This document shows positions 22,612-50,033 of a stretch of 64,000 bases of DNA, one piece after another. Every line of letters starts with the position of its first letter. Position 1 is the stretch's first letter. The DNA comes from Streptomyces griseus subsp. griseus. GTDB lineage: Bacteria > Actinomycetota > Actinomycetes > Streptomycetales > Streptomycetaceae. The stretch covers positions 4,526,001 to 4,590,000 of the forward strand of contig NZ_CP032543.1 of assembly GCF_003610995.1 (NCBI RefSeq), given 5' to 3'. The notes under the pieces were generated by a model that ran no database searches, was not told the DNA's origin, and was given only the letters and a program-made list of their open reading frames with translations. The position numbers and the translations under genes were made by a program.

Positions 22612-22730
22612 CAAGCCTTGTGCCTGGGGTGTGCCTGGGCTCCGGTGCGTGTCCTCAACCGCATCGCGAGCCCGTCGGTAGCCACCGCAATCTGCGCCCT
22701 TCTGCCCTTGGGGCGGGAGTCTGCAGTATT

Positions 22731-22755
22731 CGACACACCCGACCGCGTGGGTCGG
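22731..22755 (+). promoter_or_regulatory. Leader hairpin element upstream of rpsL, shared with rpsJ
   Basis: The 25-nt element contains the stem CCGACC-gcgtg-GGTCGG preceded by CGACACAC. The copy before rpsJ (31406-31430) differs at one base only. It ends 49 nt before the rpsL start codon, inside the leader. Function unknown; a ribosomal-protein or stringent-control target is possible. Confidence 0.65.
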
Positions 22756-22804: not shown

Positions 22805-23176
22805 GTGCCTACGATCCAGCAGCTGGTCCGGAAGGGCCGGCAGGACAAGGTCGAGAAGAACAAGACGCCCGCGCTCGAGGGTTCGCCCCAGCGTCGCGGT
22901 GTCTGCACGCGTGTGTTCACGACCACCCCGAAGAAGCCGAACTCGGCGCTCCGTAAGGTCGCGCGTGTGCGTCTGACCTCCGGCATCGAGGTCACGGCCT
23001 ACATCCCGGGTGAGGGACACAACCTGCAGGAGCACTCCATCGTGCTCGTGCGTGGTGGCCGTGTGAAGGACCTGCCGGGTGTTCGTTACAAGATCATCCG
23101 CGGCTCCCTTGACACCCAGGGTGTCAAGAACCGCAAGCAGGCCCGCAGCCGCTACGGCGCCAAGAAGGAGAAGTAA
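22805..23176 (+). CDS. rpsL: 30S ribosomal protein S12
   Basis: The 123-residue protein starts [23 protein letters not shown]. It has the decoding-centre loop [12 protein letters not shown] with both lysines (Lys43 region) and [12 protein letters not shown] (Lys88 region), so it is wild type at the known streptomycin-resistance sites. S12 monitors codon-anticodon pairing. It is the first gene of the str operon and is separated from rpsG by two bases. Confidence 0.98.
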
Positions 23177-27168: not shown

Positions 27169-27210
27169 TTTCTGCTTGGTCCTTGGACCTGGTGGCTCAC
27201 TGAGCTGCAA

Positions 27211-27248
27211 GAAGGGCCCCGCCCCTCGCAAGAGGAGCGGGGCCCTTC
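27211..27248 (+). terminator. Terminator of the str operon
   Basis: GAAGGGCCCCGC (27211-27222) pairs with GCGGGGCCCTTC (27237-27248), with an inner CCTC/GAGG extension. Confidence 0.88.
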
Positions 27249-27366
27249 GCCATGTCCGAAAGCCTCAGGGGTACGGAGGTGGCCTTCGCGCTACGGGCGG
27301 GGCGCCAGGACACCGGTGGACGGCACGGCGGCCGTCAGGGCGAAGGCCCCGGCCCCTCTCATGGAT

Positions 27367-27410
27367 GTAGGGCCCCGGTACCTCAGGGCGGAGAGGTAAG
27401 GGGGCCCTAC
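27367..27410. repeat. Inverted repeat downstream of the secreted protease gene
   Basis: GTAGGGCCCC (27367-27376) and GGGGCCCTAC (27401-27410) pair, with TACCTC and GAGGTA forming an inner stem. It lies in the spacer between the convergent tuf and protease genes, and may be a second terminator for the protease transcript. Confidence 0.6.
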
Positions 27411-27420
27411 GTTTCAGAGG

Positions 27421-27449
27421 GACGGCGGGTCGGTCAGGTGCCCGCCGTC
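27421..27449 (-). terminator. Terminator of the trypsin-like protease gene
   Basis: GACGGCGGG (27421-27429) and CCCGCCGTC (27441-27449) form a 9-bp stem starting 19 bases past the protease stop codon on the reverse strand. Confidence 0.65.
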
Positions 27450-27467
27450 CCAGGGGGTGGCGGTCGG

Positions 27468-28193
27468 TCAGACGCCCGCGACGGACTGGATCCAGGAGCG
27501 GTACGCGGTGACGTTCGTGTACGCCGTCGTGGTCTGCCGGTCGCTGGTGGAGGCCACGCCGACCTGGATGCCGTTGGCCGTCATCGGGCCGCCGGAGTCA
27601 CCGCCGGCGGTGATGCCGTTGCCGCGGCGGGCGCAGATCGCCGAGCCGCCGTACGCGTCACCGCAGCCGCCGGTCACGGTCACGTTGGCGACCTTCAGGT
27701 AGCGGGACTGGCAGTTGGCCTCCGAGCCGCACTGCGAGGTGGCGCCCCAGCCCCAGACCTGGACGCTCTGGCCGACGCTCACCGAACCGGGGTTGCCCAG
27801 GCGGGAGTAGGTCGTCTGCACGGAGCGGTCCAGGCGGACCAGCGCCAGGTCCGAGCTGTGGGTGTAGGTCTGGGTGCCGTTGGCGACCACGCCGCCGCTG
27901 TGCTGGTCGAGGCTGCCGATGCGGAACGACAGGCCGCCGCCGGTGACGCAGTGCTTGGCGGTGAGGATCCAGGTCGGCGCGATGATCGTCGCCGAACAGG
28001 TCTCTCTGCCCTGGGAGAAGAGCCGCGCGGCCCAGGGGGCGTTGGACGCCTGGCCGCCGCCGATGATCTGCGTGGTCGGGGGCGGGGCGTCCTGGAGCGG
28101 GGGCTGCGGGGCGGCGGTGGCGGCGGGGCTGAGAAGAGCGAGGACGGTGGCCGCGGCGGCGAGGGCAGCGGGAACTAGCCTTGCTATTCGCAT
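27468..28193 (-). CDS. Secreted trypsin-like serine protease (S1 family)
   Basis: The 241-residue preproprotein has a signal peptide (MRIARLVPAALAAAATVLAL, cleavage near ATAA) and a short propeptide before IIGGGQASNAPWAARLF. The triad is His in WILTAKHCV, Asp in THSSDLALVRL, and Ser in AGGDSGGP. Six or more cysteines suggest disulfides. The specificity pocket residue is not certain from reading alone. It should act outside the cell. ATG 28193 is the start, with a perfect 9-bp palindrome about 100 bp upstream that may be an operator. Confidence 0.93.
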   Translation of the reverse strand: MRIARLVPAALAAAATVLALLSPAATAAPQPPLQDAPPPTTQIIGGGQASNAPWAARLFSQGRETCSATIIAPTWILTAKHCVTGGGLSFRIGSLDQHSGGVVANGTQTYTHSSDLALVRLDRSVQTTYSRLGNPGSVSVGQSVQVWGWGATSQCGSEANCQSRYLKVANVTVTGGCGDAYGGSAICARRGNGITAGGDSGGPMTANGIQVGVASTSDRQTTTAYTNVTAYRSWIQSVAGV

Positions 28194-28288
28194 GGTTCCT
28201 CATTTCGGGGAGCACGCTGAGGGGCGTGTTTGTGGGGGTTGACGGCCCCAGAGTGCCGAAGAACCCATCCGCGGGGTACTAACGCTTT

Positions 28289-28309
28289 CCCATAACGCCG
28301 CGTTATGGG
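28289..28309. promoter_or_regulatory. Palindrome upstream of the trypsin-like protease
   Basis: CCCATAACG-ccg-CGTTATGGG is a perfect 9-bp inverted repeat. It is unusually AT-rich for this genome and lies 96-116 bp from the protease start codon, an expected operator position. The binding protein is unknown. Confidence 0.55.
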
Positions 28310-28385
28310 GTGGCGAACCTTAGGTAGCGCCACGGAGGCGTCGAACACCCCTGGGTGGTGCCACCGGATGCCGGCTCCGATGCCC

Positions 28386-30458
28386 CTACGCGGCGCCCAC
28401 GGGACGCCAGATCCACGGCGCCGCGTCCGGCCCGAACCCCACGACGGTGGGCGCCCCGTCCGCCCCGAGGTGGAGCGCGGCCCCGTCCAGGGCGACGGTC
28501 CCCCGTGAGCGTACGGCGGTGGAGCCGGCGGTACGGAGGTGGAGCGCGCCCTCGGCGGTGCGGCCGAGCAGGACCGGGCCCCGGGGAGCGGGTGCGGCGG
28601 CCACCGGGCCGTAGCCGTCGAAGTGCGGGGCGGGGGAGCCCGAGCCGGTCACGGTGGTGAGCGCGGCGCGGGCGGCGGCCCGGTAGTAGAGGTCCACCGA
28701 TCCGTCCGGCGCGGGCACGGCGGCCGGTGCGTGGGAGGGGACCGGTCCATCGGCGAGCTGGGGACGGGCGGTGACCTCACCACCCGGGGCGTCCTGCGTC
28801 CAGTGGTGCACGGCGTGGTGCCCGGCGGCGTACACATGCACCCGCCCCGCCGCGTCCGCGACCGCCGTCAGCCCGTCCTGCACCTCACCGCCGCCCAGGT
28901 CACGCCAGCCGCCCCAGCGCCCGGTGCCCGCGTCGCGCACCCGGGTGCTCAGCCCCTTCTCCGCGTTCCGTACGAAGAGGTGGACGCGGCCGTCCGGCGC
29001 GGTCACGGCGACCGGCACGCCGATGCGGCGCCCGTGGTCGCGGCCGGTGGCGGGGTTGCCGAGCCCCCGCCAGGCGCGGAACGGGCCGCCCGGCGAGCGC
29101 TGCTCCAGCACCACGATCTCGCGCTCGTTCTCCGAGCCGTGCCCGCCGAGCGCAGCGAACCGCAGCCCGAACAGCATGTGCCGCCCGTCCGCCGTCACCG
29201 CCGAGCCCAGCACCGGCGCGAGCGGGCCGCCGCCGAGGTCGTCGGGCGCGTCCCAGACCCCGCTGCCGGGTGCGTTCTCGCGCCACCGCACGGCGCGCAG
29301 CCCCAGCACCCCGTACGCGGTGAGCCGGCCGTCCGACCCGGAGGCGAGGGCCGGGCGGGGGCCCGGATAGCGGTGGTGGGTGGAGCGGACCCAGCCCTTG
29401 GGGTTGGTCAGGGGCCGGTCGCCGCCCACGTTGTAGTCGCCGCAGCCGGACGGGTTGCCGCACTCCCAGCCGGGGGAGCCGCCGTACGGGACGAGGTGGG
29501 CGGCCTTCCGCTCCAGCACCTTCGGCGGCAGGTTCTTGGGCCAGTGCCGGTTGTAGTAGCCCCGGAAGGAGGAGACCGTGAACCCGGGCACGGGCTCCCC
29601 GGCCGCCGTCGCCCGCGCCACCCAGCGGATCAGCGCCGCCCAGGCGAAGCAGCCGGTCGCGGTGTGGTCGGCGTGGTCGGAGTACCCGCGCTGCTCGCTG
29701 TCCCGGCGCCGCTGCGCCTCGGAGCTGAACTGGAGGTCCGGGTCGGGGTCCAGGGTGTGCACGAGGGTGGGCCGGTACCGCTCCAGCAGCCCGGTGAGGA
29801 CATCGACGAGACCGTCGTACGTATACGAACCGGCCCTGCCCAGCGGGGAGTTGTCGGCCACGACGGTACGCAGCACCAGCCGCCGGTCCTGCCAGAGGCT
29901 CGGGAGCCCGAGACGCCCCCGGCCGGTGTGCATCGCGGTGTTGAGGAAGACCAACTCGACCCGGCGCGCCCCATGGACCAGGACGTTCAGCTCGGCCCGG
30001 TGGCCGCCGTGCAGGGGGAGCACCGACTTCTCCCAGGGCGTGAAGCGGTCGAGGCCGAGGAGCTCGGCGTACGCCTGGCGCAGGCCCTGGTGGCGGGAGG
30101 AGGAGTACGCGGCCCGGTCCGGGGCCGGGCGGGGTGCGCCCGGGATCCTGTTGACGCCGTCCGCCTCGCCCGCGGTCAGATAGACGCAGACCAGCGGGGT
30201 CCCGGCGTCCAGGCACTGCCGGGTGTCCGGGTTCATGAAGTACAGGTCGTCGTCCGGGTGGGCCAGCAGCTGCATGATCCGCGCGCGCCGGGTGGACGCT
30301 ATGGCCAGCCCCGGCGCCGGGTCCGGCACCGGCCCCCGGCGCCTCGGTGCCGGTACGGCACATCCGGCGAGCGCGGCGGTCGCGGTGGCCGTGAGGAGGA
30401 GCGTGCGCCGGGGCAGCCGTATCCGGGACAGGACAGATCGATCCACCACGCCACGCAC
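28386..30458 (-). CDS. PIG-L family deacetylase lipoprotein with C-terminal propeller-like domain
   Basis: The 690-residue protein has an N-terminal signal with a lipobox (ATAALAGC, Cys near residue 33). The PIG-L/LmbE domain covers about residues 55-320, with the metal motif AHPDDD and the second motif YSDHADHTATG. Such enzymes remove acetyl groups from N-acetylglucosamine-type substrates. The remaining half has repeated segments such as GRVHLFVRNAEKGLSTR, GRVHVYAAGHHAVHHW and GSVDLYYRAAARAAL, as in the PLL-type beta-propeller lectin domains. It is probably a surface enzyme acting on glycans. The GTG start at 30458 is uncertain; GTGs at 30449 and 30446 are alternatives. Confidence 0.85.
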   Translation of the reverse strand: MRGVVDRSVLSRIRLPRRTLLLTATATAALAGCAVPAPRRRGPVPDPAPGLAIASTRRARIMQLLAHPDDDLYFMNPDTRQCLDAGTPLVCVYLTAGEADGVNRIPGAPRPAPDRAAYSSSRHQGLRQAYAELLGLDRFTPWEKSVLPLHGGHRAELNVLVHGARRVELVFLNTAMHTGRGRLGLPSLWQDRRLVLRTVVADNSPLGRAGSYTYDGLVDVLTGLLERYRPTLVHTLDPDPDLQFSSEAQRRRDSEQRGYSDHADHTATGCFAWAALIRWVARATAAGEPVPGFTVSSFRGYYNRHWPKNLPPKVLERKAAHLVPYGGSPGWECGNPSGCGDYNVGGDRPLTNPKGWVRSTHHRYPGPRPALASGSDGRLTAYGVLGLRAVRWRENAPGSGVWDAPDDLGGGPLAPVLGSAVTADGRHMLFGLRFAALGGHGSENEREIVVLEQRSPGGPFRAWRGLGNPATGRDHGRRIGVPVAVTAPDGRVHLFVRNAEKGLSTRVRDAGTGRWGGWRDLGGGEVQDGLTAVADAAGRVHVYAAGHHAVHHWTQDAPGGEVTARPQLADGPVPSHAPAAVPAPDGSVDLYYRAAARAALTTVTGSGSPAPHFDGYGPVAAAPAPRGPVLLGRTAEGALHLRTAGSTAVRSRGTVALDGAALHLGADGAPTVVGFGPDAAPWIWRPVGAA

Positions 30459-30597
30459 TCCGTCCGCTCCCGCTTCCCCCGCAGCGGGCGAACGGTCGCC
30501 CTGTCCTGCGTACTCCCGGCTCTTCGCTCAGGTCAGCGGCTGGTCAAGCCGTACCCGCGAGGGGATAGACGGGGAGCGCGGCGCGGAGGTTGCCCGG

Positions 30598-31056
30598 TCA
30601 GGGGGTGGGCTCGCGCACCAGGAACACGTCGACCCGGTCCTCCCGCTCCAGCGCGAACCCGTGCCGCTCGTACAGCCGCCGCGCGGCGCTCCCCCGGAGC
30701 ACGTTCAGCCGTACGGGCATCCGCTCGGCGTCTGCACGGTCCAGGAGTCCGCGCAGCACGGCCGAACCGACGCCGCGGCCCTGGAGTCCGGGGGAGAGAA
30801 GGAAGTTCTCCAGCCACCAGCAGTCCCCGGCCGGCCGCAGCGTGACGCACCCCGCGAAGCCGTCGGGGGTCTCCAGGACCGAGGTGTGCGCGGGCAGGTA
30901 CGCGTCCCGCAGCCGCTGCCGTACCCGGTGTTCGTCGTACCGCCCCAGCCGCTCCAGGTCGGGGCGCATGACGACCGCCCGCAGCTCGGCGACGGCCTCG
31001 ACGTCCTCGGGGAGGGCGGGGCGCAGGGTCCAGTGCGGCAGGGTGTTGGTCGGCAT
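30598..31056 (-). CDS. GNAT-family N-acetyltransferase
   Basis: The 152-residue protein has the acetyl-CoA binding motif A in WWLENFLLSPGLQGRGVGSA, then VRLNVLRGSAARRLYERHGF, which is the motif B helix and the end of the fold. The substrate cannot be told from sequence. It starts at ATG 31056 (MPTNTLPHWTLRPALPEDVE) and is divergent from the S10 operon. Confidence 0.92.
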   Translation of the reverse strand: MPTNTLPHWTLRPALPEDVEAVAELRAVVMRPDLERLGRYDEHRVRQRLRDAYLPAHTSVLETPDGFAGCVTLRPAGDCWWLENFLLSPGLQGRGVGSAVLRGLLDRADAERMPVRLNVLRGSAARRLYERHGFALEREDRVDVFLVREPTP

Positions 31057-31103
31057 GGCCGGATTCTGTCAGGGGCCCGGTACCGCCGGATGCGCGCCTG
31101 CGT

Positions 31104-31131
31104 TTGAGCACTCGCTCGCGCGGGGTAGGAT
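31104..31131 (+). promoter_or_regulatory. Candidate promoter of the S10 operon
   Basis: TTGAGC (31104-31109) and TAGGAT (31126-31131) are separated by 16 bp. Transcription from here would give a leader of about 355 nt before rpsJ. Confidence 0.6.
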
Positions 31132-31405
31132 TCCCGACTCGATTGGCCAGGCCCGCGCCCCGTATGGCACACTGACCAGGTTGCTCGGTTGAGTGTCAAT
31201 GCTGCGCGCCTCCCGCCGGGAGGACCGGAAGCGAGTCCCACAGTACTCGTCGGCCCTGTACGGGCCGGACGTACGGGAATCTTCCGGGAAGCAACGCAGG
31301 GCGCCGGCCAGGCACCCGGTGGGTGTTCCGCCCCCGGTTCCGCGGTCTCAGGGCCCGCACCCCCTTGGTTGGGATCTCTTTCGGGAGATTTTCGTAGAGG
31401 GGATG

Positions 31406-31430
31406 CGACACGCCCGACCGCGTGGGTCGG
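31406..31430 (+). promoter_or_regulatory. Leader hairpin element upstream of rpsJ, shared with rpsL
   Basis: It carries CGACACGC followed by the stem CCGACC-gcgtg-GGTCGG and matches 24 of 25 bases in the rpsL leader (22731-22755). It ends 62 nt before rpsJ. See the findings for how to test a common regulator. Confidence 0.65.
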
Positions 31431-31492
31431 AGGAGGAGTCCAGAGAACCCCTGGGTTCCAGAGCGTTACGAGAGACAGGACTACTAGTAGCC

Positions 31493-31801
31493 ATGGCGGG
31501 ACAGAAGATCCGCATCCGGCTCAAGGCCTACGACCACGAGGTCATCGACTCCTCGGCGAAGAAGATCGTCGAGACGGTGACCCGCACTGGTGCGTCGGTC
31601 GCGGGCCCGGTGCCGCTGCCCACTGAGAAGAACGTGTACTGCGTCATCAAGTCGCCGCACAAGTACAAGGACTCTCGCGAGCACTTCGAGATGCGCACGC
31701 ACAAGCGCCTCATCGACATCCTCGACCCCACGCCGAAGACGGTTGACTCGCTGATGCGCCTCGACCTCCCGGCGGGCGTCGACATCGAGATCAAGCTCTG
31801 A
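31493..31801 (+). CDS. rpsJ: 30S ribosomal protein S10
   Basis: The 102-residue protein begins [20 protein letters not shown] and contains [20 protein letters not shown], the conserved loop that reaches the 30S head; in E. coli it also binds NusB. It is the first gene of the S10 operon. ATG 31493 matches the family start although the upstream frame is open. Confidence 0.97.
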
Positions 31802-47329: not shown

Positions 47330-47424
47330 GCAGCACCACCCGCACGACTTCCGTGAGGCGTCCGCTTCACGGGAACTGACACCGGTACCTGATACGGCCG
47401 GTGCAGCACACAAGGAGAATCACC

Positions 47425-49182: not shown

Positions 49183-50033
49183 CTACGAACCGGCCTCCGC
49201 CGCCTTCGAAGCCTGGATCTGGCCACGGTGGCGGATCTGGCGGAAGACGAAGTCCGTCAGGTCGTCGCCGACCGCGAAGACGTTCTTGTCCTGGGCGGTG
49301 ACGCGGGTGCCGTCGGTGAACCCGCCCACGGTGAAGTAGGCGTACCGCCCGTAGGAGTTGGTCGTGCGGCGGCAGACCGTACCGCCTCGGCAGAACGTGG
49401 ACACGCCCGCGCCGCTGAGGGAGGCGAGGCCGCCGGAGGCCTGGTCGACCGTCTTCCTCGCGCGGGCCTCGGTGTCGAAGACCGCGATGCCCACGGTGAC
49501 GGCCACCCCGTCCTTGCGGTAGGTCGCGCGGATGAGCTGCTCGCAGCCGTTCTTCGTGAGGACCGCGCCGAGGGCGCCCTGGGTGCCGGTCGCGCACTCC
49601 GTGGTGCGGTCGGTGGCACCCTTGAGGTGGACGCGCTCACCCATGGCGAGCTTCTCGCCGGGGAAGAAGCCGTCGACGGTGATCGGCGCCTTGTCCTTGT
49701 CGGCGCTGGATATGTACTCCTTCGGGTCCGGCGGGGGCGGCGGTGCCACCGGCGAGAAGGAGGGCGCGGGCGCCGATGTGTCCTCGGGGAGGTCGGCCGG
49801 CGCCGGGAGTCTGCTCGCTCTGCCGGCCGGATCGCTCTTGCCGCCCGTGGTGACCACGGCGGTCGCCACGATCGCGCCGACCACGGCGGTCGCCAGCACC
49901 CCGCCGCCGATCATCAGCCACCGCTTGCGGCGGGCGCGCGCGGCGGACTGCTCGGCGAGCGCGGCCCAGTCGGGAGTTCCGCTGCCCCCGGAGTCCCGTT
50001 GTTCCCCGGCCCCCAGGAGGGCCCCCTTGCCAT
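49183..50033 (-). CDS. Membrane-anchored exported protein of unknown function (N-terminal frameshift)
   Basis: From ATG 49914 the frame is intact: a membrane helix (MIGGGVLATAVVGAIVATAV), a Pro-rich linker (residues about 35-65), and an extracellular domain with two Cys pairs (DRTTECATG, TKNGCEQL; TFCRGGTVCRR). Open sequence upstream reads GSGTPDWAALAEQSAARARR before the helix, the typical cytosolic part of such proteins, but has no start codon in frame. Adding one G in a run near 50025 would start it at ATG 50033 (MARGALLGAGEQ...). Function not recognised. Confidence 0.65.

Follow-up and report, generated by a model that had tools for sequence, protein, structure and literature searches.

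Background

The regulator WhiA provides the closest described systems with which the element treated here can be compared. In Streptomyces venezuelae, GACAC was identified as the WhiA site by ChIP-seq and footprinting, and the developmental sites have only these 5 bp in common, in either orientation; across the regulon, Bush 2013 describes no consensus around GACAC beyond GACAC itself, so that WhiA does not generally use a long site (PMC3781837). The gene rpsJ is among the ChIP-seq targets in that organism, with a peak at 75 bp from the start codon and values printed under the vegetative and mid-sporulation columns (PMC3781837, Table 1). The presence of WhiA at rpsJ is, thus, already known.

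A second description comes from Mycoplasma gallisepticum, in which WhiA binds and represses the rpsJ operon from a site located 22 nt downstream of the transcription start; the core is contacted by the HTH domain and an auxiliary motif by the endonuclease-like domain, and ATP loosens the latter contact (PMC11701221). In most of the whiA-bearing species examined in the same work (Fisunov), Actinobacteria being one of the groups mentioned, the core GAYACRCY precedes the rpsJ operon and is followed by clade-specific auxiliary motifs. No mention of rpsL occurs in Bush 2013, Bush 2016 or Fisunov 2024 in the main text, as distinct from the supplements, and no link between WhiA and rpsL or the str operon was found in the literature searched, which consisted of main texts and included few subscription papers. 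Ribosomal-protein leader RNAs (e.g. RF03132) are a further kind of element that, like the present one, precedes ribosomal-protein genes and would act in cis on an operon.

Results and discussion

The element in the window and in its genome

The window, i.e. the whole stretch of 64,000 nucleotides of Streptomyces griseus subsp. griseus that was analysed, contains the following features:

22688 to 22693, plus strand: possible -10 hexamer of the str operon, CAATCT, read by eye, within a block common to several same-genus leaders
22732 to 22755, plus strand: candidate WhiA operator of the str operon, with core GACACACC (22732-22739) and class-specific downstream half CGACCGCGTGGGTCGG (22740-22755)
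22805 to 23176, plus strand: rpsL (S12), which heads the str operon and starts with GTG
27169 to 31492, no strand: insertion between tuf and rpsJ, about 4.3 kb long, that keeps the str and S10 operons apart
31407 to 31430, plus strand: probable WhiA operator of the S10 operon, with core GACACGCC (31407-31414) and downstream half CGACCGCGTGGGTCGG (31415-31430)
31493 to 31801, plus strand: rpsJ (S10), which heads the S10 operon and starts with ATG

The initial annotation had pointed to a 25-nt sequence upstream of rpsL (22731-22755) that recurs upstream of rpsJ (31406-31430), and this was confirmed. Both copies lie on the plus strand, differ at a single position (A/G at the seventh base) and end 49 nt before the rpsL start (22805) and 62 nt before the rpsJ start (31493), and their flanks are unlike (identity 8/30 upstream and 6/30 downstream). 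The exact 17-mer CCGACCGCGTGGGTCGG is found at only two sites in the genome of 7,238,194 bases, namely the rpsL and rpsJ leaders, and one additional site appears when a mismatch is allowed. As for random occurrence, a pattern of the conserved positions, composed with the element already known, gave two matches in the window and none in 100 shuffles; at up to three mismatches the 17-mer is ordinary there, with four matches, 2.2 expected and as many in 18 of 100 shuffles. The window also holds an L17-Actino-Proteobacteria leader (Rfam RF03132) at 47351-47406 on the plus strand (74.1 bits, cut-off 34.9).

Further matches were discarded. A third match to the operator pattern was detected in ten same-genus genomes, a similar one being found in eight of the ten; the copy in the present genome (L472:1300-1581, near 5,531,385) lies inside a 93-codon frame, presumably acylphosphatase-like, and was considered a coding coincidence. 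The sequence GACACRCCCG at position 49400 of the window is located inside open frames, including one of 243 aa on the minus strand, and lacks the downstream half. An apparent in-frame TAG in rpsL of two relatives proved not to be an internal stop.

Conservation in the class Actinomycetes

A draw of 60 genomes of the class, the present one included, rendered 52 with an rpsL match, and all 52 rpsL leaders were inspected. The sequence GACACRCCCGACCKCGKGGGTCGG precedes rpsL in 49 of them, at 19 or more of its 24 positions, and in the remaining three (G002, G026 and G045) the element is found upstream of rpsJ instead. Conservation in relatives, a check called for by the initial annotation, thus extends to all 52 class genomes with an rpsL match. 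At up to three mismatches, GACACRCCCGACCKCGKGGGTCGG is present in 20 of 21 genomes comprising our own and others of the same genus and order, mostly as two strong matches, and the single genome without it is 79% complete.

In every one of the 22 class genomes searched, a sequence-only profile built from 54 copies (R1) had a match with an E-value of 3.1e-6 or lower. In a draw of 149 genomes from the phylum, run under stricter filters at which weak matches were lost, R1 matches at E 1e-4 or better were confined to the class members (12 of 12). The best R1 match outside the class (L149, in G173) agrees at 21 of 24 positions, with no rpsL or rpsJ start downstream in the sequence listed. A stricter pattern was present in 245 of 296 class genomes; its misses include the lower-GC group f25, of which the copies inspected (G025 and G044, 48-49% GC at the locus) start with AACAC. 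No exact match to the 24-mer pattern was found in viral contigs.

In the 54-row alignment (A1), the invariant columns spell ACxCxCCCG....CGxG, which is an asymmetric word, and include one further G after it. In two lineages GGGTCGG has become GGACCGG, which indicates that the precise letters at the 3' end are dispensable. Among the copies of family f4, those before rpsL (L076, L078, L080 and L148) have a drifted 3' half, e.g. CGGGGTACG, and those before rpsJ (L144-L146) remain near the consensus, so that the two copies may differ in strength in this family. Positions 6, 14 and 17 of the 24-mer, which are the variable ones, do not show a codon-like spacing by eye, and a leader peptide was discarded as an explanation.

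Copy number and operon layout

The number of copies was compared with operon layout in the 31 genomes for which tuf and rpsJ were in the same fetched stretch. None of the nine genomes with a tuf-rpsJ gap of 134 nt or less (88-134 nt) has a copy before rpsJ, which is present in 18 of the 22 genomes in which the gap is at least 168 nt (Fisher p 3.5e-5, with the cut-off picked post hoc and relatedness uncorrected). These counts suggest that, as a rule, each transcription unit has one copy and that the second copy accompanies the separation of the operons. There are four exceptions (L056, L057, L071 and L073, families f17 and f18), with gaps of 168-308 nt and no rpsJ copy; in these, either the genes still form a single transcript after all or the S10 site has been lost. 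In the present genome, the insertion between tuf and rpsJ contains a minus-strand frame (28386-30458) with a PIG-L deacetylase domain.

Probable identity as a WhiA operator

It had been stated at the outset that no named element with this sequence was known. This does not hold, since the 5' half corresponds to the WhiA core GACAC or GAYACRCY (PMC3781837, PMC11701221): 52 of the 54 aligned copies fit GAYACRCY, including both copies in the window. The rpsJ element covers 86 to 63 nt upstream of the start codon, and its centre, at 74-75 nt, coincides with the published position of the S. venezuelae peak. The element agrees with every sequence point of the Fisunov description of the rpsJ site, a GAYACRCY core plus a downstream auxiliary motif. 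Its auxiliary half is, however, CGACCKCGKGGGTCGG, in contrast to GTTGT in M. gallisepticum, and in the present genome there is a second copy before rpsL, a gene that the main text of that work does not mention (PMC11701221). With the developmental sites of S. venezuelae, the element shares GACAC and the character of an asymmetric single site, but whereas those have 5 bp in common and may lie in either orientation (PMC3781837), the ribosomal sites share about 24 bp, have the same orientation in every copy inspected and recur throughout the class. A literature search with the raw sequence of the element rendered Pseudomonas papers only.

Taken as a whole, the element is very probably a WhiA DNA operator common to the str and S10 operons, and WhiA would be expected to bind at rpsL as well. 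Of the original proposal of a common trans-acting regulator or an RNA processing site, the regulator is well supported, as WhiA, and the RNA part is not, for the reasons given below. It is improbable, on the other hand, that the element is the operator of a different DNA-binding protein that shares GACAC by coincidence, or of WhiA acting only together with WhiB or some other partner. The 24 conserved positions, which exceed the GACAC known for WhiA genome-wide, would fit such a reading, as would the reported mutual dependence of WhiA and WhiB at their in vivo targets (PMC4850268). Nevertheless, ChIP places WhiA at the corresponding rpsJ position (PMC3781837), GAYACRCY at rpsJ is common to Mollicutes, in which WhiA binding and repression have been measured (PMC11701221), and the element tracks whiA outside the class, as described in the next section.

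Occurrence of the site and of whiA

The present genome encodes a WhiA protein of 329 aa (L323:898-1887) with the full set of three WhiA domains in Pfam (PF10298, PF14527 and PF02650), which aligns over 327 residues to PDB entries 8dy7_I and 8dy9_I ('Probable cell division protein WhiA') and, more distantly, to 3hyi. We take 8dy7 and 8dy9 to be RNA-polymerase complexes with WhiB. The whiA gene (TIGR00647) was detected in 58 of the 60 class genomes, the two misses being assemblies that are 75% and 86% complete, and in 86 of the 149 phylum genomes.

Outside the class, 132 genomes had an rpsL match and 129 of them were fetched, three with partial matches (G175, G184 and G187) being excluded; one more was dropped for a short or missing leader, which left 128 usable rpsL leaders, 72 from genomes with whiA and 56 from genomes without it. 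With a matrix derived from Actinomycetes only, the leader scored above the best reverse-strand score in 10 of the 72 whiA-bearing genomes versus none of the 56 others (Fisher p 0.0025, relatedness uncorrected); the forward-strand medians of the two groups differ slightly (p 0.017) and the reverse strands are alike. With a broader consensus, which was partly tuned on bare-core matches and for which relatedness was likewise uncorrected, 15 or more of 17 positions matched in 19 of 72 versus none of 56, the reverse strand and shuffles reaching at most 14. By both counts, outside the class the site is found only where whiA is present. The bare core GAYACRCY appears before rpsL in 7 of 72 versus 1 of 56 genomes and before rpsJ in 1 of 41 versus none of 26, with about 2-3% expected, and this test is weak.

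In 53 of the 72 whiA-bearing genomes outside the class no such site was found before rpsL, even with the broader consensus, and several whiA-bearing families (e.g. f45, f52 and f40) lack it there. In family f52 (L247, L251, L259, L260, L266, L275 and L276), whiA is mostly strong-scoring and none of the seven genomes has a recognisable rpsL site; the site may have diverged in this family, or WhiA may have other targets there.

Sequence rather than pairing is conserved

The two copies in the window can, on paper, form the CCGACC/GGTCGG stem that the initial annotation had noted (MFE -10.6 kcal/mol), and a structured leader RNA has to be weighed, in which the hairpin CCGACC-GCGTG-GGTCGG, or a smaller one, CCCG-ACCK-CG(K)GG, would be the target of a ribosomal protein acting as a repressor of the two operons. 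A regulator of str and S10 of this kind would account for the two copies, and in Actinomycetes the element occupies a probable transcribed leader, in a fixed orientation, at a distance of 34 to 146 nt from the start codon in the set of leaders measured. The covariation of the stem that had been proposed as a check was nevertheless not found: there are no compensatory changes for CCGACC/GGTCGG in the 54 copies. Cells of the 6-bp stem are paired in 87.3% of cases versus 87.7% in shuffles of the A1 alignment, so that pairing is no better than in the shuffles, and all six pairs are intact in 28 of the 54 copies, the remaining 26 having at least one broken pair; the GGACCGG lineages break two pairs simultaneously. 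The four inner pairs (columns 9-21, 10-20, 11-18 and 12-17) are all intact in 53 of the 54 rows, but they are uninformative, since these columns hardly vary, and neither RNAalifold nor a covariation count for this 4-bp inner stem supported an RNA leader.

Rfam gave no match at either element, whether for the window at the gathering score or for two 3-kb stretches at E-values up to 1. By simple sequence comparison, i.e. local alignment to one rrn operon of the same genome on both strands, likeness to rRNA was no better than that of shuffled queries. Unlike the ribosomal-protein leader RNAs, the element has, thus, neither covariation nor an Rfam match, and conservation is asymmetric and one of sequence rather than pairing. 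Together with the fit to the WhiA core and with the location upstream of the predicted promoter in Coriobacteriia (see below), these results make a structured leader RNA very unlikely.

Still less credible is an RNA processing or mRNA-stability site, such as an RNase III site or a barrier to RNase J, common to both leaders, to which the hairpin potential of the window copies and the leader position would lend themselves. In this case too, it is the sequence that is conserved and not the pairing, and the Coriobacteriia copy lies outside the predicted transcript. In an S. coelicolor transcript map (PMC4681348), the main text is silent on both rpsL and rpsJ, which is not evidence either way.

Position relative to promoters

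If the CAATCT hexamer were the -10 of the str promoter, it would put the str operator inside the transcribed leader, which is possible. In two lower-GC class genomes, a block consisting of TTGACC, 16 nt and GATACC is, by eye, conserved upstream of rpsL, and the element begins 24 nt (G025) and 77 nt (G044) past it; in G004, also by eye, it begins 42 nt past a similar AATACC. These promoter-like sequences suggest that the element is probably located within the transcribed leader in Actinomycetes, at a variable distance from the promoter.

In Coriobacteriia, a cognate, GATACKCCCGGNNNCGTGG, directly precedes the promoter as predicted from sequence, and its downstream half is CGGNNNCGTGG versus CGACCKCGKGGGTCGG in Actinomycetes. 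The CGGNNNCGTGG pattern itself served as the query with which the Coriobacteriia cognates were searched, and the scan rendered at least 120 matches in at least 119 loci; among the matches listed, most are spread over many phyla and at least 11 are found no farther than 600 nt upstream of rpsL (10) or rpsJ (1). Eight of these 11 are in titled genomes, which include Olsenella (3) and Rubneribacter, with lineage checked; the others are Atopobium (2), Eggerthellaceae (1) and Coriobacteriales (1), all of which we assume to be Coriobacteriia. The cognate is followed by TTGAC[A/G]-N17-TAnnnT in 9 of the 10 rpsL copies among the matches listed, this promoter pair being absent at L397 and at the rpsJ copy L415, and by TTGACA-N16-18-TAnnnT in 11 of 11 copies from families f46, f53, f67 and f75.

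Since the Coriobacteriia cognate precedes the putative -35 and -10 sequences, it need not be transcribed, and the element is not inside the predicted transcript in all of its holders, as a ribosomal-protein leader would be. An element that is found on either side of the transcription start would act as DNA, in agreement with a WhiA operator.

Proposed mechanism

WhiA, in which a C-terminal HTH domain is joined to a LAGLIDADG homing-endonuclease-like domain, would bind the element as double-stranded DNA. The HTH would read GACACRC(C), and in Actinomycetes the LAGLIDADG domain most likely contacts the downstream half and reads CGACCKCGKGGGTCGG, so that the two would make up one long asymmetric site. 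With the operator present once per promoter, a single regulator could set the initiation of both ribosomal-protein operons together. Where rpsJ lies close behind tuf, a single site before rpsL would serve both operons, and where the operons have been pulled apart, as in the present genome, rpsJ usually has a copy of its own.

The sign of the regulation is described differently in the two organisms. In a whiA mutant of S. venezuelae, the expression of rpsJ and of other targets in translation is significantly lowered (PMC3781837), which is opposite to the repression of the rpsJ operon by WhiA in M. gallisepticum (PMC11701221). Our guess, which we consider a reasonably likely one, is that WhiA represses transcription initiation or promoter escape and that a good energy supply relieves the repression; net activation in Streptomyces is the alternative.

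Conclusions

Set against the literature searched, the analysis adds the str copy, the 24-bp class-wide consensus, the rule that each transcription unit has a single copy and, in Coriobacteriia, the cognate ahead of the -35. The element constitutes a precise, class-wide and testable candidate for a WhiA operator at both operons, with a full-length consensus where in Streptomyces only GACAC had been available.

It is conceivable, and we propose it tentatively, that the ancestral role of WhiA in Actinomycetota was to adjust ribosome synthesis to growth or energy state through a long operator at the str-S10 supercluster, which was duplicated when the cluster split, and that the role in sporulation and division through loose GACAC sites came later in Streptomyces. 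In Corynebacterium glutamicum, expression of rpsL, rpsG, rpsJ and rplC falls upon addition of serine hydroxamate, with and without rel, as does that of many ribosomal-protein genes (PMC1578569). If the ancestral reading were true, WhiA would be a candidate for this (p)ppGpp-independent shut-down of str and S10 genes in C. glutamicum. The operator described here might provide a reason why a sporulation regulator has been retained in relatives that do not sporulate.
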